Translations under genes and position numbers: made by a program
Shown here: positions 3,878 through 44,607 of the stretch, one piece after another
Layout of the letters: each line of letters starts with the position of its first letter
How positions within the stretch are numbered: the stretch's first letter is position 1
The notes under the pieces: model-generated
The model's input: the letters and a program-made list of their open reading frames with translations, nothing else
The model's database searches: none
What the model was told of the DNA's origin: nothing
Assembly: GCA_016219965.1 (NCBI GenBank)
Contig: JACRJM010000003.1
Location: 380,299 to 444,298 of the forward strand
DNA: 64,000 bases
From: Candidatus Schekmanbacteria bacterium
Lineage (GTDB): Bacteria; Schekmanbacteria; GWA2-38-11; J061
Direction: 5' to 3'

Positions 3878-4897
3878 TTATCTGGCAACGCGGAATCCTA
3901 TGTTGCTGTATCCTATGCCAGGCCTGTGCATGCCTCGGTATATACAACGGATTAACTCCGGCTTATTGAACCATGACCCCCCTCGAAGTACTCGCGATTT
4001 CCCGGATAGCGGCCCCTTCGGGTTGTCTTTAGTGCTGTTTTTATAATATTGTCTGCCATACCAATCAGAACACCACTCCCATAAATTACCGCTCATTTCA
4101 TAGAGACCAAGACTGTTTGGCTTGTACGATTTAACAGGAGCTGTTATTTTATACCTGTCATTATGCTTCTTGTCGCTCCAGTCAAAATCAGTATTCGAAT
4201 CAGCATAGTTGCAATTAGTACCATCAGGTTCACTATTACCCCACGAATATTTTATCTTCTTTCCGCCTTCTCTTGCTGCATATTCCCATTCAGCCTCTGT
4301 AGGCAGCCGGTATTTTTTCCCGGTTTTCTTTGTCAGCCAATCAACATAGGCAACCGCATCATTCCATGATATTCCAGCAACAGGATGACTTTCCGACTGT
4401 GAAAATCCGAGATTGTCCCAGTATGTCCCGTTTTTTTGTTCCCATACTGAACCGCCCCAAAATAACACTCCTCCGGTCTTCTCTGCTTCTGTTTTGTATC
4501 CTGTAGCCTTAGCAAACTCCCTGTACTGTCCCACGGTAACTTCTGTCTCTGATAAATAGAATGAATCAACCTTGATTGTATGTGCAGGTTTCTCATCTTC
4601 CCCGCCATTACCAAAAGTATCCCCCATATCAAATGTTCCTCCCTTGATGAGAACCATCTTCATCCCTGAAGGGAGTTGCCTTTCATCTGTGGACTTTGTT
4701 GTAACCTTGGGCTGCACTTTATCTTTTACCGTTGGTTGCACTTCAGGCTCAGGGACTTTTTCCTGCTCTTTAACCGTTGGTTGCGCTTCAGGTTCAGGTA
4801 TTTTTTTTGGAGTAAACAAGGAACATCCACTTTGTACCAGAAGGATTGTAAAGATTAAAAGGCTGATGGTAAAACGATATCTAAATAAGTATTTCAT
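3878..4897 (-). CDS. SUMF1/FGE-type lipoprotein
   Basis: 339 residues. Lipoprotein signal peptide with lipobox VQSGC near residue 24, then a Pro/Glu/Val/Lys linker (about 30-70) in which a PEPE-x-QPTVK unit occurs twice. The FGE-sulfatase domain fills about 78-339: GTFDMGDTF, SETEVTVGQYREF, GISWNDAVAYVDWL, RLPTEAEWEYAAREGG, SGNLWEWCSDWYG, RVLRGGSWFN and the final NIGFRVAR. Known family roles range from formylglycine generation to iron-dependent hydroxylation and plain C-type-lectin-like binding. Catalytic activity cannot be decided here. Paralogous to the truncated gene at 1-630, from which it differs mainly by the longer linker. Confidence 0.88.
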   Translation of the reverse strand: MKYLFRYRFTISLLIFTILLVQSGCSLFTPKKIPEPEAQPTVKEQEKVPEPEVQPTVKDKVQPKVTTKSTDERQLPSGMKMVLIKGGTFDMGDTFGNGGEDEKPAHTIKVDSFYLSETEVTVGQYREFAKATGYKTEAEKTGGVLFWGGSVWEQKNGTYWDNLGFSQSESHPVAGISWNDAVAYVDWLTKKTGKKYRLPTEAEWEYAAREGGKKIKYSWGNSEPDGTNCNYADSNTDFDWSDKKHNDRYKITAPVKSYKPNSLGLYEMSGNLWEWCSDWYGRQYYKNSTKDNPKGPLSGKSRVLRGGSWFNKPELIRCIYRGMHRPGIGYSNIGFRVAR

Positions 4898-11527: not shown

Positions 11528-14500
11528 ATGCTGTCCAAGAACTACGTTACCAGACTATCAACAATCTTATTAGCTCTATTGCTAATTCCATTAGTTTCAT
11601 GCTCAATTCAGAAACCACAGCAATCGCTTAATACCCCAACTAATCCTGACAAGAAGGCAATTACTGCAAAGATGGCAAAGCTTCAGATTCCCTTCATTGA
11701 GAACAGAGGGCAGTTGCCGGATGAGGTAAAGTATTATGCAAACACCTTTGCAGGAACTGTCTATGTCAAAAAGAATGGCGAGATTGTTTATAGCCTCAGC
11801 AGAAATCACGGAGTAGCCTCTAAACTTGCTAACAGGAAAGTAACAGTCCTCAGTGAGAACCTTGTTGGTGGAAAATCAATATCACCAGTTGGAATGGATA
11901 GCTCTCAAACTAAGGTCAACTATTTTACAGGCAATGACAAAAGCAAATGGCAAACCGGCATATCAACATTCAACGAGGTGAACCTCGGTGAGATTTATAA
12001 TAATATAGAGCTTAAACTTAAAGCTTATGGGAATAATATTGAGAAGCTCTTTGTTATTAATGGGAATGGCAAAGTTGAGGATATAAAGCTCAATATAGAG
12101 GGCTCTAATGGATTAAAAATAAATGATAAGGGCGAGCTTGAAGTTGAAACAGAACTTGGTAATGTCGCATTCACAAAACCCTTTGCATATCAAGAGATAG
12201 ATGGAAAAAGATTTGAGGTTAAGACTGAGTTTATAATTGATTCGTCACTCTCCTATGGTTTCCATGTTGCCTCATACAACCCAAACTATCCGCTCATCAT
12301 TGACCCTCTTCTTGCCTCAACCTTTATTGGAGGAAGTGATGCTGATGGAGGCAATGCCATAGCCATAGACTACTCAGGCAATGTCTATATCACAGGACGG
12401 ACTGCTTCATCCAACTTTCCCACAACAGGGACTTCTTATGATAGCTCCTTTAATGGTTCTCATATTGTTTATGGTGTCGGGGATGTCTTTGTCTCAAAGC
12501 TAAATAATTCATTAACCACACTTCTTGCCTCAACATTTATTGGAGGAAGCAGTGATGAAGAGAGCAATTCCATAGCCATAGACTCCTCAGGCAATGTCTT
12601 TGTCACAGGATACACTATGTCATCCAACTTTCCCACAACAGGGACTCCTTATGATAGCTCCTTTAATAGTGGACTAGATGTCTTTGTCTCAAAGCTAAAT
12701 AATTCATTAACTACTCTTTCTGCCTCAACATTTATTGGAGGAAGCAGTAATGAATTCGGCAATTCCATAGTTATAGACTCCACAAGCAATATCTTTGTCA
12801 CAGGGGAGACCAGTTCATCCAATTTTCCCACAGCGGGGGCTCCATATCTTTATGATAGTTCACTAAATGGTGGTTCTGATGTCTTTGTCTCAAAGCTAAA
12901 TAATTCATTAACTACTCTTTCAGCTTCAACCTTTATTGGAGGAAGCGGTAATGATACCGGCAATTCCATAGCAAGAGACTCCTCAGGCAATATTTATGTC
13001 ACAGGGGAGACTTACTCATCCAACTTTCCCACAACAGGGACTCCTTATGATAGCTCCCATAATGGCAATACTGATGTCTTTGTCTCAAAACTAAATAATA
13101 TATTATCTACTCTTCCAGCCTCAACTTTTATTGGAGGAAGCGGCTATGATATTGGCAGAGCCATAGCCATAGACTCCTCTACGGGCAATGTTTATGTGGC
13201 AGGGGAGACTGGCTCATCCAACTTCCCCACAGCAGGGAGCCCTTATGATAGCTCCTATAATGGCAATACTGATGTCTTTGTCTCAAAGCTTAACAGTTCA
13301 TTAAATACTCTTTCAGCTTCAACCTTTATTGGAGGAAGTGGTTCTGATTCAATGGGCGATTCCATAGCAAGAGACTCCTCAGGCAATATTTATGTCGCAG
13401 GTTCCACTGATTCATCCAATTTTCCCACAGCAGGGACTCCTTATGATAGCTCCCATAATGGCAATACTGATGTCTTTGTCTCAAAGCTTAACAGTTCATT
13501 AACTACTCTTTCAGCCTCAACCTTTATTGGAGGAAGTGATGTTGATGGAGGCACTTCCATAGCAAGAGACTCCTTAGGCAATATCTTTGCCACAGGGTGG
13601 ACCGCTTCATCCAATTATCCCACAACAGCAGGGGCTTATGATACATCCAATAATGGAGGTAATTGGGCGGGTAGTTCTTTTGGAGATGTCTTTGTTTCAA
13701 AGCTTGATAATAATTTAAGCTCCGATGACCCTGATGGAGACGGGATTAGTTATCTAGTTGACAACTGTCCTAACACCTATAATCCTGACCAGACAGATAC
13801 AGACGGTGACGGCATAGGTGATGCCTGCGATATGGACATAGATGGCGATGGAATATTAAATGGCTCTGACAACTGCCTAAATACATATAACCCTACTCAG
13901 GTTGATTCTGATAATGATGGAATCGGTGATGCCTGTGATACTGATAATGATAACGATGGAATATTAAATGGCTCTGACAACTGCCCAAATACTTATAACC
14001 CCACTCAGGCAGATTCTGATCATGATGGAATCGGTGATGCCTGCGATTCTGACAATGATGGCGATGGAATACCAGATGCCTCCGACAACTGTCCTTCTGT
14101 TTCAAACCCGGATCAGGCAGATGCTGACAATGATGGTACAGGTGATATCTGCGATACCTGTACAGATATAGACGGAGATGGTTACGGCAATCCTGGATTT
14201 TCAGCAAACACTTGTCCTGCGGATAACTGTCCTGATATTTCAAATCCAGATCAGGCAGATACGGACAATGATGGTATAGGTGATATCTGCGATGCTGACA
14301 TAGATGATGATGGAATATTAAATGCCTCAGACAACTGTCCTTCTGTTTCAAATTCGGATCAGTCAGATATAGACAATGATGGCATAGGTGATGCCTGTGA
14401 TACCTGTATAGATACAGATGGAGATGGATACGGCAATCCAGGATTTGTAAACACTTGTCCTATTGACAACTGCCCTAATGTTTCAAATCCAGATCAGGCA

Positions 14501-14878
14501 GATTACAACAATAATGGACAAGGTGATGCCTGTGACCCTATCCCGACACTAATCACTCTTTCCTCCTTTGAAGTAAAACAAACCGGCAGGAAAGTTGCGC
14601 TCAAATGGAAAACCGGAACTGAAATTGACAACATTGGATTCAACATCCTCCGCAGCGAATCAGAAGATGGCCAATATAAGAAGATAAACCAGAAGCTCAT
14701 CAAGGCCAAAGGCACTGCGATAAAAGGGGCAAGCTATCAATTCAAAGACAATAACATTGAGGCAGGCAAGACATATTGGTATAAGCTTGAGGATATAGAC
14801 AGCAACACAGGAGCTACTCAGCATGATGCGGTGAAGGTTGATGTTGCTGCAAAGAAATCCAAGACAAAGAAAAATTAA
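11528..14878 (+). CDS. Large SBBP-repeat / thrombospondin type 3 lipoprotein
   Basis: 1116 residues. Signal peptide with lipobox LVSC at about 23-26. Residues 50-255 match the N-terminal domain often preceding SBBP repeats (FIENRGQLPDEVKYYA). Seven SBBP (beta-propeller) repeats follow (about 261-728), each with ASTFIGGS, a GN-[IV]-[YF]-VTG strand and DVFVSKLN, enough for one seven-bladed propeller. Residues 734-1003 are calcium-binding thrombospondin type 3 repeats (DxDxDGIGDACD and DNCP units). The end (about 1007-1105) is a fibronectin-III-like domain beginning LITLSSFEVK. Probably a surface-anchored adhesin. It is driven by a sigma-54 promoter and followed after 14 bp by a small peptide gene. 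Confidence 0.9.
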   Translation: MLSKNYVTRLSTILLALLLIPLVSCSIQKPQQSLNTPTNPDKKAITAKMAKLQIPFIENRGQLPDEVKYYANTFAGTVYVKKNGEIVYSLSRNHGVASKLANRKVTVLSENLVGGKSISPVGMDSSQTKVNYFTGNDKSKWQTGISTFNEVNLGEIYNNIELKLKAYGNNIEKLFVINGNGKVEDIKLNIEGSNGLKINDKGELEVETELGNVAFTKPFAYQEIDGKRFEVKTEFIIDSSLSYGFHVASYNPNYPLIIDPLLASTFIGGSDADGGNAIAIDYSGNVYITGRTASSNFPTTGTSYDSSFNGSHIVYGVGDVFVSKLNNSLTTLLASTFIGGSSDEESNSIAIDSSGNVFVTGYTMSSNFPTTGTPYDSSFNSGLDVFVSKLNNSLTTLSASTFIGGSSNEFGNSIVIDSTSNIFVTGETSSSNFPTAGAPYLYDSSLNGGSDVFVSKLNNSLTTLSASTFIGGSGNDTGNSIARDSSGNIYVTGETYSSNFPTTGTPYDSSHNGNTDVFVSKLNNILSTLPASTFIGGSGYDIGRAIAIDSSTGNVYVAGETGSSNFPTAGSPYDSSYNGNTDVFVSKLNSSLNTLSASTFIGGSGSDSMGDSIARDSSGNIYVAGSTDSSNFPTAGTPYDSSHNGNTDVFVSKLNSSLTTLSASTFIGGSDVDGGTSIARDSLGNIFATGWTASSNYPTTAGAYDTSNNGGNWAGSSFGDVFVSKLDNNLSSDDPDGDGISYLVDNCPNTYNPDQTDTDGDGIGDACDMDIDGDGILNGSDNCLNTYNPTQVDSDNDGIGDACDTDNDNDGILNGSDNCPNTYNPTQADSDHDGIGDACDSDNDGDGIPDASDNCPSVSNPDQADADNDGTGDICDTCTDIDGDGYGNPGFSANTCPADNCPDISNPDQADTDNDGIGDICDADIDDDGILNASDNCPSVSNSDQSDIDNDGIGDACDTCIDTDGDGYGNPGFVNTCPIDNCPNVSNPDQADYNNNGQGDACDPIPTLITLSSFEVKQTGRKVALKWKTGTEIDNIGFNILRSESEDGQYKKINQKLIKAKGTAIKGASYQFKDNNIEAGKTYWYKLEDIDSNTGATQHDAVKVDVAAKKSKTKKN
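12308..13711 (+). repeat. Seven tandem SBBP coding repeats
   Basis: Units of about 195-205 bp recur with near-identical blocks, for example the stretches encoding ASTFIGGS and DVFVSKLN. High DNA identity between neighbouring units points to recent unit duplication and makes the region prone to copy-number change. Confidence 0.9.
13727..14536 (+). repeat. Thrombospondin type 3 coding repeats
   Basis: Asp-rich repeats encoding DxDGDGI, DNCP and GIGDACD units, eight or so in number, in two unit types: one with ILNGSDNC, the other with CIDTDGDGYGNPGF. Each DxDxDG loop is a classical calcium-binding site. Confidence 0.85.
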
Positions 14879-38818: not shown

Positions 38819-39616
38819 ATGGAGTTTTGCTTTTATATATCAAAGACTGATCTGCTCTCAAAGTTTGATGAAAGCTGTAACCGTATCTATTTCGGCGCTG
38901 AGTTCTGCGAAAGGCTTATTCCCGAGGTACAGGACATTGAAAAAGTAAAAGAGTTTACCCTCTTAAGAGGGCTTGAATTTTCCCTTATGACTCCTTACTG
39001 CACTGACAATGGAATTGAAAAACTAAAAAAATTATTCACATTTATTGCTGCCAATTTTGACAGGGCTGAAGTCATTGTCAATGACTGGGGAGTATTGAGG
39101 GTTCTTAAGGAAAGCTTCCCTGCTCTTACGCCTGTGCTTGGCAGGCTTATGACAAAAATGAAAAGGGATCCGCGGCTTATCCCGCTGCTTCCTGTAATAA
39201 ATCAGGGAAGCAGGGATTACTATTCGTCAACTAATCTCAATCTTCCATGGTACAGGAAGTTTCTTCATGTACAGGGAATAAGAAGGGTTGAGCTAGATAA
39301 TCCGTACCAGAAAATAATATCAGAAAACCTGCCAAAGGATTTAAACATATCTCTTTATATGCCTTTTGCCTATATTTCTACTACCAGGTTTTGTCTTGCT
39401 GCCGGGTGCGAGAAAGAGGAAAATGAGTTCAAAGCCGGCATAATCCCATGCAGCAGGGAATGCAACAATTATACATTTCTTCTTCAAAGCCCGGGAATGC
39501 CTGTGCCTTTAATCAGAAGAGGCAACACCATCTTCATGAAAAAGGACTCTGTTCCCGACAATCTCTCAGAATGTTCGATTGACCGCATAGTATTGCAGCC
39601 CGAAATCCCTCTCTAA
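38819..39616 (+). CDS. U32-like partner protein
   Basis: 265 residues, GGAAAG before the ATG. It has the same barrel-like plan as its upstream partner but lacks the full U32 signature. Cysteines cluster in FCLAAGC and PCSREC (about 185-210), a possible Fe-S site as in UbiV. The two probably form a heterodimer. Its last 15 codons are duplicated at 39770-39816 beyond the stop, a sign of local rearrangement. Confidence 0.65.
   Translation: MEFCFYISKTDLLSKFDESCNRIYFGAEFCERLIPEVQDIEKVKEFTLLRGLEFSLMTPYCTDNGIEKLKKLFTFIAANFDRAEVIVNDWGVLRVLKESFPALTPVLGRLMTKMKRDPRLIPLLPVINQGSRDYYSSTNLNLPWYRKFLHVQGIRRVELDNPYQKIISENLPKDLNISLYMPFAYISTTRFCLAAGCEKEENEFKAGIIPCSRECNNYTFLLQSPGMPVPLIRRGNTIFMKKDSVPDNLSECSIDRIVLQPEIPL
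39563..39609 (+). repeat. Parent of a duplicated 47-bp gene end
   Basis: End of the U32-like partner gene. A copy with 42 of 47 bases identical lies at 39770-39816, 207 bp downstream. Confidence 0.8.
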
Positions 39617-39672
39617 GTTTTTCAAAGAATTTCATATCGAGCATCACTAGTTCCTGCGGGTGGAGCTTCAAA

Positions 39673-39697
39673 CAGAAAAATCAGAAAAAATAAATGG
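39673..39697 (+). pseudogene. Remnant of a TonB-domain gene 3' end
   Basis: CAGAAAAATCAGAAAAAATAA plus ATGG repeats, with one extra A, the end of the TonB-domain gene (40185-40208, including its stop). It is followed by the same hairpin element. No further similarity is seen upstream, so this is the leftover of a deleted copy. Confidence 0.6.
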
Positions 39698-39707
39698 CGA
39701 TTAAATT

Positions 39708-39774
39708 GAGAGGGGCGGAGATCTGCACTTCGCTTAAAACTTCATGCGCTCTTGTGCAGACCTCCGCCTCTCTC
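39708..39774. repeat. Long hairpin element, copy 1
   Basis: 21-nt arms (39708-39728 and 39754-39774), 19 Watson-Crick pairs plus one wobble, around a 25-nt loop. The inner arm ends are CTGCAC/GTGCAG. The loop is the reverse complement (24 of 25) of the loop of copy 2 at 40219-40283. Confidence 0.85.
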
Positions 39775-39816
39775 AGAATGCTCCATTAACCGCATAGTAT
39801 TACAGCACGAAATCCC
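39770..39816 (+). repeat. Duplicated end of the U32-like gene
   Basis: 42 of 47 bases match 39563-39609. Here it is not attached to a gene body and has no stop at the original place, so it has been spliced into the open frame before the TonB-domain fragment. Confidence 0.8.
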
Positions 39817-39901
39817 ACCTCCGTTTTTTTCTCGCAATCTAGGCCGTATACGAACAAAAAAGTATGTGGATAATAAAACACCACACATAATTACTGAAGA
39901 C

Positions 39902-40204
39902 ATGACAAAACCGGAACCGCTTGAGAAGGTAGAGCCCATATACCCTGATAAGGCACGAAAAGAAGGAATAGAAGGGACAGTAATTCTTCAAATAGTGATT
40001 GGGCCAACAGGAAATGTTGAAAAAGCAAATTTATTAACAGTTATTCCGCCTAAAGCAAGAGGATTCGGTTTTGAAGACACAGCCATACAGGCAATTTTAA
40101 AATGGAAGTTTTCACCTGCCAAAGATGCCAACTGGGAAAACGTACGAGTTTATTATAATGCTCCCATAGTATTTAAACTAAAGCCAGAAAATCAGAAAAA
40201 ATAA
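39902..40204 (+). pseudogene. TonB C-terminal domain fragment, N-terminus lost
   Basis: From MTKPEPLEKVEPIYPDKARKEG to the end, about 100 residues, is a standard TonB C-terminal domain (GTVILQIVIGPTGNV, AIQAILKWKFSPA). The frame is open up to 39752, but its first part encodes the duplicated U32-like tail, not a membrane anchor or signal peptide. Without these the domain could not reach the periplasm to contact receptors. I read it as a 5'-truncated gene created by the local duplication. An expressed cytoplasmic domain is less likely. Confidence 0.65.
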
Positions 40205-40218
40205 ATGGTTGTTAAATA

Positions 40219-40283
40219 AGAGATGGGGCGGGCTGCACCAGAGCGCATGAAGTTTTAAGCGAAGTGCAGGCCGCTCCATCTCT
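40219..40283. repeat. Long hairpin element, copy 2 (inverted loop)
   Basis: 20-nt arms (40219-40238, 40264-40283), 18 Watson-Crick pairs plus one wobble, the same inner CTGCAC/GTGCAG ends and a 25-nt loop in opposite orientation to copy 1. It lies between convergent genes and could act as a bidirectional terminator. Confidence 0.85.
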
Positions 40284-40307
40284 TTATATTCTCAAAAGCT
40301 TCTATAA

Positions 40308-43300
40308 CTACTCCTCTATTTCTTCAATTTCCCCTTCAAGCTCAAGATATATCTGTTTCATCTTCTCTATTTCTTCGTCGCTTGCCTTCCACATGCCGCG
40401 CTGGTATGCCTCCATCAAACGCTTCATAGTGTCTTCAACAGACCAGATGTTCTCCTTCATCATTTTTTTTCGCATATCTTCATCGAAAAGATATTTTTCA
40501 GCCACCTGGCTGTAAACCCATGTGTCAACAGACTTGGTAGTGGCAGACCATCCCACAAGGTTCTGCAGTCGTTCGTTTATATTAGACACGCCGCGGTAAC
40601 CGCTCTCCACCATCCCCTTCATCCATTGAGGATTAAGTATTCGCGTCCTTGCCTCAAGCTTCACCTGGCTCTGGATGTCGCGCGTTTCAATTCGCTTCCG
40701 CGTTGTATCAGGCACTACTGTGATAACCTGTTTCTTCACAGTTTCAGGCCGTTTTTTCCTTATCGTATCAACAGCCATAGAAAGCCCGCCAAGGAATTCG
40801 TAGTAATGATCAAGGTCGGTTATCCCTCTCTCATCGGTGTCGCGCACCTGTGACACTATCTCCACTGTGCTCAATACTTCTTCAAATGCAGCGACACTCG
40901 ATACTCCCTGGAATGTGTCGCCATAGATGTGGCTCATGTTAGTGAGGTGCATCTTTGAAATCTCATCTTCACTTTCCCACTCAGATGTCTCAATCAGGTT
41001 TGTAACATCGGTGGCATATTTTTCGCCCGAGGGCCCGAAGATCCTCGATGCTGCCAATTTTTCTGCATTTTCCGATGGAACTCCTTTTTTGATAAGCGCC
41101 TCTTTAATCATCTGGCAGTGCTTCCTTATGAAATTCTTCTCAGGCGGCTCCGGAAGTCTTGTCACTAGACGAAATGCCTGGTCAACAAACCTTAATGTCT
41201 CCGGCAGTGTGTCGCGGAATATTCCGGAAATCTCAACCGCTACATCAAGGCGCGGTCTGCCAAGCTCTTCCAAAGGTATAGGTGCTATTGCCACTATCTG
41301 ACCAATGTATGACCTTATTGGTCTTACCCCAAGGAGTGCAAATATTTCTCCCACTGTTTCACCCTGAGTCCTCATGGTTTCAAGCCCCCAGAGCACCACG
41401 CCAACGGTTTCAGGATATCCGTCAGTATCATTCATCTCCTTATATGAGTTTATGACCTGCTGTGCCACTGTTGCCCCTCTTTCACATGCAAGGGCGGTAG
41501 GGATAAGCTGAGGATTGAACTGGTACATGTTGCGTCCGGTTGGAATTACATTGGGGTCACGCACAGGATCGCCACCTACTCCTGAACTTACAAACTCCCC
41601 GCAGAAATAACGCATAAGCTGGTCGATTTCGCGGTTGTTTCCGAGCATTCCTGCAATTTTTCTTCCATACTCAAGGCTTTCCTCGAGAGATTTCAAATCA
41701 TCTTTTGAAAGGCTGTTTTTTATAAATTTATTTATCCATTTTTTTAAAGGTTGCGTTGTGCTCAAACTATAACGGATCATCTCCCGTGCCTGTCTATCTA
41801 TCTCATCTATTGCAGCTCCCATAAGAATGCCGCCCGACAGGACTTTTGCAGGAGTTAGTTGTCCTTCATCCCAGTCAATCCCTTTTGCATGTCCAATGAT
41901 CTTTGGAACAGAGTTTATATTCCCGCGGTCATACCTTAAAATGCCCGCCACATACTCTTCAAGATCTTCACCCTTTAGCGAACGGCCAAGTATGTGATCT
42001 CCCTTTGGCATGAGATTCCCTTTGAGTTCAAAGATTCTCCCATAAAGCTGGTCTATATCAACTGTATCAGCTTCTATCTCTGCAAGATTCTGTTCCTTTG
42101 CCATTTCAAGGATGCGTTCAAGCGCCTGCTCTGCCCGCGACGCACTTGTCTGCTTCAGCGAATAGTAGTTCTGGATCTCTCCTTCAAGTTCCAGTGTTCT
42201 CTCATATAGTTTTGAATTGATAAGCGGTGGTGTCATATGGCTTAAAAGGGCAGAGCATATCCTCCTTCTTGCTATCATCCCCTCAGCAATCCCGCTTGCA
42301 AGATAGACATAAATGTTAACAAGATTGCCAATCAAGATGTCCGGAAAACAGGTTTCAGACATGGCCATCTGCTTGCCTGGCAGAAATTCAAGTGTTCCGT
42401 GAGTCCCAAGGTGGACAACTGCATCAGCTCCGTATTCACGCTCTATCCACCTGTAAAAGGCAAGATACTGGTGGTGCGGCGGAAGGGCCTGGTCATGGGT
42501 GAGCTTAGAGGTGTCCTCGTGGTAACCGCGGGCAGGTTGAAACCCTACGAAAACATTTCCGAAATGAAGGCCCGGAATGTAAAAATTATTATCATCTGCC
42601 ATTATTTTCCCCGGCGCTTTTCCCCACTCAGAATTCATTCTATCCCTGCATAGTTGAGGCAGTTCATTAAACCATGGAATATATTTTTCTGCCGGCACCT
42701 TTATGCAGTGTTCTTTTACTTTTGTGAGTGTTGCCCAGTTCGCCTGGTTGATAAGATTCTTATTGTTGATAAGCCTTAGGAATTCATGCCGCGTCTTAGG
42801 AAATCCATGCACATCGTAACCCTCTTTCTGCATCCGCTCGAGTATGGCTATCAAGCTCTCAGGTGTGCTAAGGCTCGCAGCAATTCCTACACGGTCTTTT
42901 CCAGGAGGATAGTTATAAAGGATTATGGCAATTTTTTTATCCTTGTTCTTCTTGTGTCGCAGATTTACCCAGTTTGCTATGCGGGCAGATGCGCGCTCAA
43001 CTCTTTCTTCTATTGGAATACTGACTCTTACAGGACGCTCTGGTGTTCCTTCCTCTTTACGGGCGGAAATAACCCTCCCCTCAATCAGACCGTCAAGCTC
43101 AGGAAGAGAAAGCGACAGTGTTGTTTCTATTGGGGTAAGCCCTGCAGGCGATTCCATCCATTCTTCAAGACTTGAAAGAGTGAGCGGCAATGACTTTATG
43201 AGCGGCACATTCATTTTTTCGCAGAAGGCAAGGCATTTTTCATAATCCCCGCCTAAAGGCCCTCCTTCAAGCCTGAAATTTAGCGTGCTTACCATGATAT

Positions 43301-44204
43301 CTATTGTGTTTTTATCTCCCTCCATAAAAAACTCGCTCATCGCTCTGAACGCATTTGAAGCCCCGCATGCTGCAGGAAGCACTCCTACTCCTTTTTTTTC
43401 AAGATGCTCTATCAGCATTCCCACGTCAGCATTATCATTGACAATGACAGTGTCGTTGTTAGTGAGAAGCCCGACAAGGCTGAGCCTCCCCTTTCCATCC
43501 TTAAAACCCTTTTCATTAACGTAGCCGCGGTACCATTTGAGATAATCCGCAGTCGAATAAAACCGTGCAGGAGCCTTAGGGTGATAAATGAATTCCGTTG
43601 GCTCAATGCGCGGCTCGCCGAAGGTTACATCATAGTCAAAGTACTCCTTCAGGACGAAAAGGAACATGTTCATAAAATTCTCGTCCCCACCGCTGTTGCA
43701 GTATTTGTAGATCCTGACATAGTTGCCGGCATCTCTCCATTTTCCGAAGCGGAGAACTTTGAGAAGCACGTCCATCCGGTCAAAAAGAGTGCGGAATTCC
43801 CGCCTTGTCTCTCCTGAAGAAACAAGCCGCTGGAGGAAACCCAGAGCCTTTGATATTTTTGAATCCTTGGCAGAGCCCAGGTAATCTTTAAAATTAAATT
43901 TCCCCAGCGTTGTAAGGGCCATTGCCTGTGGAGTACCGGAAAGGATAATGATACTTTTTCCCATACCAAACTTCTTTATCATTTCCAATGGTTCACCTTC
44001 AAAGATCATGGAAGTAAGGATTACATCCGCTTTCTTTATGCTCTCCTCCATACGTTTCAACTGCTGAGGCGACATCCTCATCCGTCTGAAATGTAGAAAA
44101 TATTCGAGTTTGACCTCCCCCTTAAAGCGCTCATCCAGTTTTTTTGCCGAATAGGCAAGGGAATGGGCAAAGGCATGGTTTCCTACGATGAAGGTAAATT
44201 GCAT
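40308..44204 (-). CDS. BchH/CobN-like large chelatase subunit
   Basis: 1298 residues from ATG 44204. An earlier in-frame ATG abuts the GAGGAG site, whereas the chosen one is 9 nt from it. The N-terminus (FIVGNHAFAHSLAYSAKKLDE to about 160) resembles the BchH/ChlH head. The CobN/Mg-chelatase body has LYNYPPGKDRVGIAASL, VHLGTHGTLEFLPGKQMAMSE, GGDPVRDPNVIPTGRNMYQFNP and a C-terminal RILNPQWMKGMVESGYRGV. It should insert Mg2+ or Co2+ into a tetrapyrrole with ATPase partners (BchI/D or CobS/T), none of which is nearby. No cobalamin riboswitch was found upstream. Confidence 0.88.
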   Translation of the reverse strand: MQFTFIVGNHAFAHSLAYSAKKLDERFKGEVKLEYFLHFRRMRMSPQQLKRMEESIKKADVILTSMIFEGEPLEMIKKFGMGKSIIILSGTPQAMALTTLGKFNFKDYLGSAKDSKISKALGFLQRLVSSGETRREFRTLFDRMDVLLKVLRFGKWRDAGNYVRIYKYCNSGGDENFMNMFLFVLKEYFDYDVTFGEPRIEPTEFIYHPKAPARFYSTADYLKWYRGYVNEKGFKDGKGRLSLVGLLTNNDTVIVNDNADVGMLIEHLEKKGVGVLPAACGASNAFRAMSEFFMEGDKNTIDIMVSTLNFRLEGGPLGGDYEKCLAFCEKMNVPLIKSLPLTLSSLEEWMESPAGLTPIETTLSLSLPELDGLIEGRVISARKEEGTPERPVRVSIPIEERVERASARIANWVNLRHKKNKDKKIAIILYNYPPGKDRVGIAASLSTPESLIAILERMQKEGYDVHGFPKTRHEFLRLINNKNLINQANWATLTKVKEHCIKVPAEKYIPWFNELPQLCRDRMNSEWGKAPGKIMADDNNFYIPGLHFGNVFVGFQPARGYHEDTSKLTHDQALPPHHQYLAFYRWIEREYGADAVVHLGTHGTLEFLPGKQMAMSETCFPDILIGNLVNIYVYLASGIAEGMIARRRICSALLSHMTPPLINSKLYERTLELEGEIQNYYSLKQTSASRAEQALERILEMAKEQNLAEIEADTVDIDQLYGRIFELKGNLMPKGDHILGRSLKGEDLEEYVAGILRYDRGNINSVPKIIGHAKGIDWDEGQLTPAKVLSGGILMGAAIDEIDRQAREMIRYSLSTTQPLKKWINKFIKNSLSKDDLKSLEESLEYGRKIAGMLGNNREIDQLMRYFCGEFVSSGVGGDPVRDPNVIPTGRNMYQFNPQLIPTALACERGATVAQQVINSYKEMNDTDGYPETVGVVLWGLETMRTQGETVGEIFALLGVRPIRSYIGQIVAIAPIPLEELGRPRLDVAVEISGIFRDTLPETLRFVDQAFRLVTRLPEPPEKNFIRKHCQMIKEALIKKGVPSENAEKLAASRIFGPSGEKYATDVTNLIETSEWESEDEISKMHLTNMSHIYGDTFQGVSSVAAFEEVLSTVEIVSQVRDTDERGITDLDHYYEFLGGLSMAVDTIRKKRPETVKKQVITVVPDTTRKRIETRDIQSQVKLEARTRILNPQWMKGMVESGYRGVSNINERLQNLVGWSATTKSVDTWVYSQVAEKYLFDEDMRKKMMKENIWSVEDTMKRLMEAYQRGMWKASDEEIEKMKQIYLELEGEIEEIEE

Positions 44205-44607
44205 ATATGGCATCTCCTCTTTAATTATGAGATCTCAAGAATTTGAAGAATATTATTTTACATTACACTTTGAGTCAATCAGTCTTATTTTTTATTCTCC
44301 TTCCTTATTGCAATATTTCCAGTAAATTGATGTTATGGGCTCCTGCGATTAAATTTCAAATTAAATGCTTAAATGATTGTTATATTTTTTAAATATGCTA
44401 TAAGGTACTCTTAATAAATAGTAATCTGTGTGGATAGGCCTGATAAACGGATTGAAAGAGAAGGATAATTCCTATCAAATTTCATCTTCATAATGGATCT
44501 TCCATTCAGTATTCTGCTAAAGGACTTGCTTCTGGCAGAAGTTCCTTTGATTTATAAAGGGATTCTGATAAAATAGCTGCAAAGAGGCAAAAAAAAGGAA
44601 ATGCGTC
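44205..44607. other. Divergent intergenic region with one hairpin
   Basis: AT-rich 403 bp between the chelatase (minus) and the nitronate-monooxygenase-like gene (plus). A hairpin at about 44517-44548 has CTTCTG/CAGAAG as inner stem and AAAGGA/TCCTTT as outer stem. TTGATT (44547-44552) and TAAAAT follow with 16 nt between, a possible promoter for the plus-strand gene. No small gene is visible. Confidence 0.4.

Follow-up and report, generated by a model that had tools for sequence, protein, structure and literature searches.

REP repeats are usually regarded as palindromes that have no clear direction in relation to genes. Their recognition by TnpAREP is described as involving both a GTAG tag and the palindrome itself (PMC8266576). 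In the account given by PMC3733652, REP families of the CGTC type have no RAYT gene flanked by the repeat, and M. tuberculosis, D. radiodurans, Bordetella and Brucella harbour REP-like families that lack such motifs at their ends in conserved form. In E. coli, REPs located no more than 15 nt from a stop codon have been described as lowering translation (PMC12306157).

The window analyzed here is a stretch of 64,000 nucleotides (G000:C3:380299-444298) from a genome of about 3.6 Mb (3.58 Mb) in 18 contigs. A sequence-only reading had pointed out two long hairpins with near-perfect stems and a shared 25-nt loop in opposite orientation, both preceded by the same TonB-gene 3' end, and all these features were recovered. 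The first hairpin (HP1) extends from 39708 to 39774 and the second (HP2) from 40218 to 40284. HP1 folds as claimed, its arms GAGAGGGGCGGAGATCTGCAC and GTGCAGACCTCCGCCTCTCTC forming 19 of 21 pairs by eye, and the 21-nt arms of HP2, separated by a 25-nt spacer, are 90% complementary. The two loops are reverse complements of each other at 24 of 25 positions. An 18-nt core, GCTTAAAACTTCATGCGC, is present without mismatch on the + strand in HP1 (39732-39749) and on the - strand in HP2 (40243-40260); within the window the loop core has just these two occurrences, where shuffled sequences lead one to expect none. Both hairpins match the covariance model R2, at G000:C3:420006-420072:+ with 81.6 bits for HP1 and at G000:C3:420516-420582:- with 78.6 bits for HP2. 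A repeat search of the window listed HP2 and not HP1. Other repeats of the window are a segment of about 470 nt present at 1-478 and 4194-4671, 4.2 kb apart, with 76-78% identity, and coding-like tandem repeats at 12238-13656 and 13744-14535 (units of about 195-216 nt and of 108 nt), which probably correspond to repeat-domain proteins.

The surroundings of the two hairpins are partly duplicated. Pairwise alignment revealed a common sequence, AGAAAATCAGAAAAAATAAATGGnnnTTAAAT, to the left of both: the left flank of HP1 (39674-39706, + strand) is homologous to the TonB-gene 3' end that precedes HP2, and the left flank of HP2 (40186-40217, + strand) consists of the end of a TonB-like open reading frame (ORF) and of the bases beyond. 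This ORF, at 39752-40204 on the + strand, encodes a TonB C-terminal domain (PF03544, E = 3.5e-16); its open frame begins inside HP1 and its true start is uncertain. A second duplication, absent from the sequence-only reading, concerns the 3' end of the ORF at 38819-39616. The segment 39562-39609 forms a direct repeat (D19) with 39769-39816 on the same strand, at 90% identity, and the first bases of the downstream copy are also the right foot of HP1. At 39752-39830 the TonB-like open frame continues into this duplicated ORF end (LSECSINRIVLQHEIP), so that an annotated start of the TonB-like ORF would mislead. On the other side, about 24 nt separate HP2 from the stop codon of a CobN/magnesium-chelatase H-like gene (40308-44213, - strand; PF02514, 1135 bits), which is convergent to the TonB-like ORF. 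HP2 has the sense orientation for this cobN-like gene, HP1 for the + strand genes at its left.

The two hairpins turned out to be far from alone. Covariance models recovered a family of 72 hairpins in this one genome, comprising 55 copies of type A and 17 of type B, HP1 and HP2 being both of type B. The core GCTTAAAACTTCATGCGC occurs 30 times in the genome at up to two mismatches, the control with the reversed pattern giving no occurrence, and it was from reading these copies that the two stem types were recognised. Type A is arranged as GGCTTGGCAGTCCCGC-TTA-(G-core-C)-TGCC-GCGGGACTGCCAAGCC and type B as AGCGGCGGCAGTCTGCAT-TTC-core-TCTT-ATGCAGACCGCCGCCGCT. A further core, GGCACTAAACAGCAGGTGCC, was found via the flanks and is present in 36 copies. 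Among the core variants (TTAAAACTTCATG, C33A, T35A, TTCAAACTTCAGG and core 3), each main one was seen on type A and type B stems alike, as though copies had swapped cores and stems with one another. Two type A copies (L084 at G000:C2:104685-104762 and L086 at C3:268014-268096) carry some 12-17 extra bases on the 5' side, between outer and inner stem. Nearly all of the 71 copies checked are intergenic. When type A and type B copies are neighbours at no more than 200 nt, they face each other in seven cases out of eight and lie in tandem in the other. The spacers of these composites are mostly without homology (exceptions were C1 and C6, next to type B), indicating that the composite is not a single copied unit. 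A comparison with Rfam yielded no match above the gathering score, and only eukaryotic microRNA look-alikes and similar chance matches below it.

When both stem types were put into one MAFFT alignment, the helices were obscured (RNAalifold recovered three pairs), and the types were therefore aligned separately. The family fold takes up about 60 nt in total. Its outer stem, about 18 bp long, leads through a 3x4 internal loop to an inner stem, which is closed by a near-invariant apical loop of 8 nt; this loop reads RAACNNCA in 51 of 57 aligned copies. Since both the internal loop and the core are asymmetric, every copy has a strand, and thus a direction. In type A, 92% of the cells are paired, as compared to 82% in shuffles and at most 46% in slid controls, and double-sided changes number 77 against 17 in shuffles. 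Type B behaves in the same way, with 30 double-sided changes against 10. The outer stem thus shows real covariation, for which arm-to-arm copying without selection could be another source, as suggested by the foot of HP1 (see below). Changes in the inner stem are also coordinated between cores: one pair is A-T, C-G or T.G, and a T/C mismatch present in cores 1 and 2 becomes A-T in core 3. A few bases beyond the conserved stem, pairing is no better than in shuffles, showing that the element has definite edges. As to which strand is folded, the evidence from wobble pairs is mixed. Read on the sense strand, the inner stem contains 59 G.T and no A.C, which favours sense RNA; the outer stem, with 18 G.T and 44 A.C (in part an alignment slip at one pair), does not.

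The direction of the copies was compared to that of the genes, using ORFs called mechanically around 71 copies. Of 31 isolated copies located between co-directional genes, 28 are sense and three antisense (p = 4.6e-6). When clustered copies are included, 38 of 45 are sense and seven antisense, four of the latter being the distal partner of a facing pair. Between convergent genes, 17 of 21 copies lie nearer the gene to which they are sense, and four copies were found between divergent genes. The stem starts at a median distance of 29 nt from the stop codon. Some copies are located inside likely operons, between gspF and gspG and in FecC-FecE-like and PabB-PabC-like pairs (identities read from the ORFs), and in several such cases the next start is 11-33 nt away. 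A replication-strand bias is an unlikely cause of this orientation because it changes with the genes within a few kb. A family whose direction can be read, and for isolated copies in co-directional contexts agrees so often with that of the upstream gene, offers a natural test of whether REP-like repeats owe their retention to a role as RNA elements or are merely tolerated DNA.

The occurrence of the family was then compared with other genomes. Covariance model R1 found no match in 40 other genomes of relatives, and neither R1 nor R2 found any in the sister genus (G001-G004) at E <= 1. Core 3, 20 nt long, was looked for in 84,980 genomes, a set from which the source genome and its closest neighbours may be missing; the scan gave one match, in Ideonella, without a matching outer stem, which is about the chance expectation. 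The gap between gspF and gspG is 24 nt long and hairpin-free in the sister genus, whose gspF is 86% identical over 155 aligned residues; here it measures 146 nt and contains a hairpin. Such a gap, empty there and filled here, supports insertion after divergence, for a comparison that concerns one locus and in which the extra sequence exceeds the length of the hairpin. No clear signal of target-site duplication was detected, the best of many offset tests giving z = 2.9. The earlier suggestion of a REP-like mobile palindrome is largely right, considering the dispersed intergenic copies at gene 3' ends, often in head-to-head pairs, and their absence from the sister genus.

The same reading had also raised the possibility that a segment of 37 bp, lying between inverted repeats of 6 bp, had flipped. 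A phase-variable site-specific switch of this kind, in which a small invertase turns over the segment between the CTGCAC and GTGCAG repeats, would be in keeping with window copies that have common left flanks and opposite loops. However, the core occurs in both orientations genome-wide, its orientation goes with the direction of the adjacent gene, and the asymmetry of stem and internal loop moves along with the core in aligned copies. Moreover, the family at large does not conserve the bounding CTGCAC/GTGCAG, and the 37-bp segment contains neither promoter nor gene. A dedicated switch is thus unsupported, and we consider it most improbable. Since each hairpin is sense to genes beside it, HP2 to the cobN-like gene that is convergent and HP1 to those of the + strand, what looks like a flip is the normal polarity of the family. 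For this pair alone, the left flank common to both copies makes it plausible that an inversion once took place through the arms of the palindrome; a flip of the inner part and one of the whole hairpin would differ at only about one stem position. The right foot of HP1 is fused to the duplicate 3' end of ORF 38819-39616, and its left foot, TGAGAG, fits this new right foot, CTCTCA, and not the left foot of HP2. This fit suggests arm-to-arm correction, by which the core could have been inverted as well. In the simplest history, a local tandem duplication would have copied the TonB-gene 3' end plus hairpin and most of the first TonB copy would then have been lost; one hairpin copy would have been re-inverted via the arms of its palindrome, with the result that each copy now has a neighbouring gene to which it is sense. 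Local duplication and one re-inversion would explain the shared flanks; no invertase is needed.

For the family as a whole, the explanation that we favour, and hold to be reasonably probable, is that HP1 and HP2 belong to a lineage-specific family of REP-like palindromes, transcribed as hairpins at 3' ends or between cistrons and spread as mobile DNA. The sense polarity together with the conserved loop points to a role as RNA, most likely in how the upstream message decays or is processed. The copies would be transcribed as RNA hairpins, a host factor would probably recognise them by the apical loop, which is conserved, and by the internal loop, which is asymmetric, and the hairpins would modulate the decay or processing of the message located upstream; judged from sequence, their probable role is that of folded tails on messenger RNAs. 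Their spread would be that of a non-autonomous mobile DNA moved by an enzyme. Purely selfish DNA of the REP/BIME type is a possible explanation, to which we give distinctly less credit. An HUH transposase (of the IS200/IS605 or RAYT type) would then read one folded single strand, 3'-end placement would reflect tolerated insertions, and the hairpins would have no role as RNA. In line with this, TnpAREP is described as binding REP single-stranded DNA in one orientation only (PMC8266576), the facing A/B pairs resemble the REP dimers presented in PMC3733652, and the genome does encode RAYT-like genes and one IS200-type gene. The sequence-only reading had indicated a RAYT transposase as a partner to look for; such genes are present, but none adjoins the hairpins, no copy being found within 1.5 kb of any Y1_Tnp ORF. 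The one RAYT gene with clear flanking repeats, at C3:529765-530100, has on both sides inverted copies of a different sequence, AAAAAGGGTTGCGTCCCC (region G000:C3:529441-530210), probably its own repeat, and is thereby tied to a repeat other than the hairpin family. On this distance and this separate repeat, RAYT was rejected as the partner of the hairpins. AAAAAGGGTTGCGTCCCC constitutes a second palindromic repeat family, with 29 matches at up to two mismatches, in this region and at 27 other places. At G000:C4:502530-502894 a B/A pair of the main family (L068, L140) is nested between two inverted RAYT-type repeats. The stem foot carries no GTAG or CGTC tag (base tables displayed no conserved flanking bases for either type), target-site duplication was likewise not seen, and tolerance alone does not predict the 28:3 sense orientation.

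Strong hairpins right after stop codons, many of them between convergent genes, could also be transcription terminators turned repetitive. In the family, however, no T-rich tract such as characterizes intrinsic terminators was found directly after the stem, where T amounts to about 0.2-0.5 per position, similar to upstream. Several copies, moreover, lie in likely operons shortly before the next start. Ordinary terminators seem to be in use in the window, where hairpins with a T-tract number 29 against 18.9 expected. The lack of a T-tract and the copies within operons make ordinary terminators an improbable origin. A strand-polar mobile RNA element, in which the hairpin would be recognised as RNA by a dedicated factor and would enter behind stop codons in sense, perhaps by an RNA- or transcription-coupled route instead of a DNA transposase, is unlikely in our opinion. 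If it were true, one organism would share a 3'-end control tag over dozens of unrelated genes and operons.

How does the favoured family of transcribed, mobile palindromes compare with known systems? As presented in PMC3733652 and PMC8266576, REP, BIME and REPIN elements (GTAG, CGTC) are similarly short intergenic palindromes in many copies near ORF 3' ends; PMC3733652 adds alternative loops, compensatory stem changes and dimers mostly in opposite orientation, often of two types. The lengths given there for REP are 20-40 bp, whereas the present hairpins reach about 60 nt, with an inner stem in addition to the outer one. No link to a RAYT gene was found here. In the absence of both the tag and the RAYT association, we regard the family as acting in the manner of a REP but do not class it as a GTAG or CGTC REP. 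Small non-autonomous MITEs such as RUP, NEMIS, Bcr1 and ERIC are also located near genes, fold and may affect mRNA, but the description in PMC3733652 gives them 70-300 bp and terminal inverted repeats of 15-30 bp; here the whole element is one hairpin. The stem-loops of selective RNA processing and stabilisation operons (PMC8219983) resemble ours in their position at 3' ends within operons, where they are able to set relative transcript levels. They are presented there operon by operon, in contrast to one sequence family spread over dozens of unrelated genes. The untagged REP-like stem-loop families of PMC3733652 share with ours dispersed palindromes, the lack of a tag and of a known dedicated transposase, a likeness drawn from their description, lineage and sequence being different as far as our searches show. 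By this analogy the hairpin family fits the untagged REP-like class, and places such repeats in an isolated bacterial lineage. Its distinguishing feature is a strong sense polarity to the upstream gene, which is not among the REP features reported in the available text of PMC3733652 and PMC8266576.
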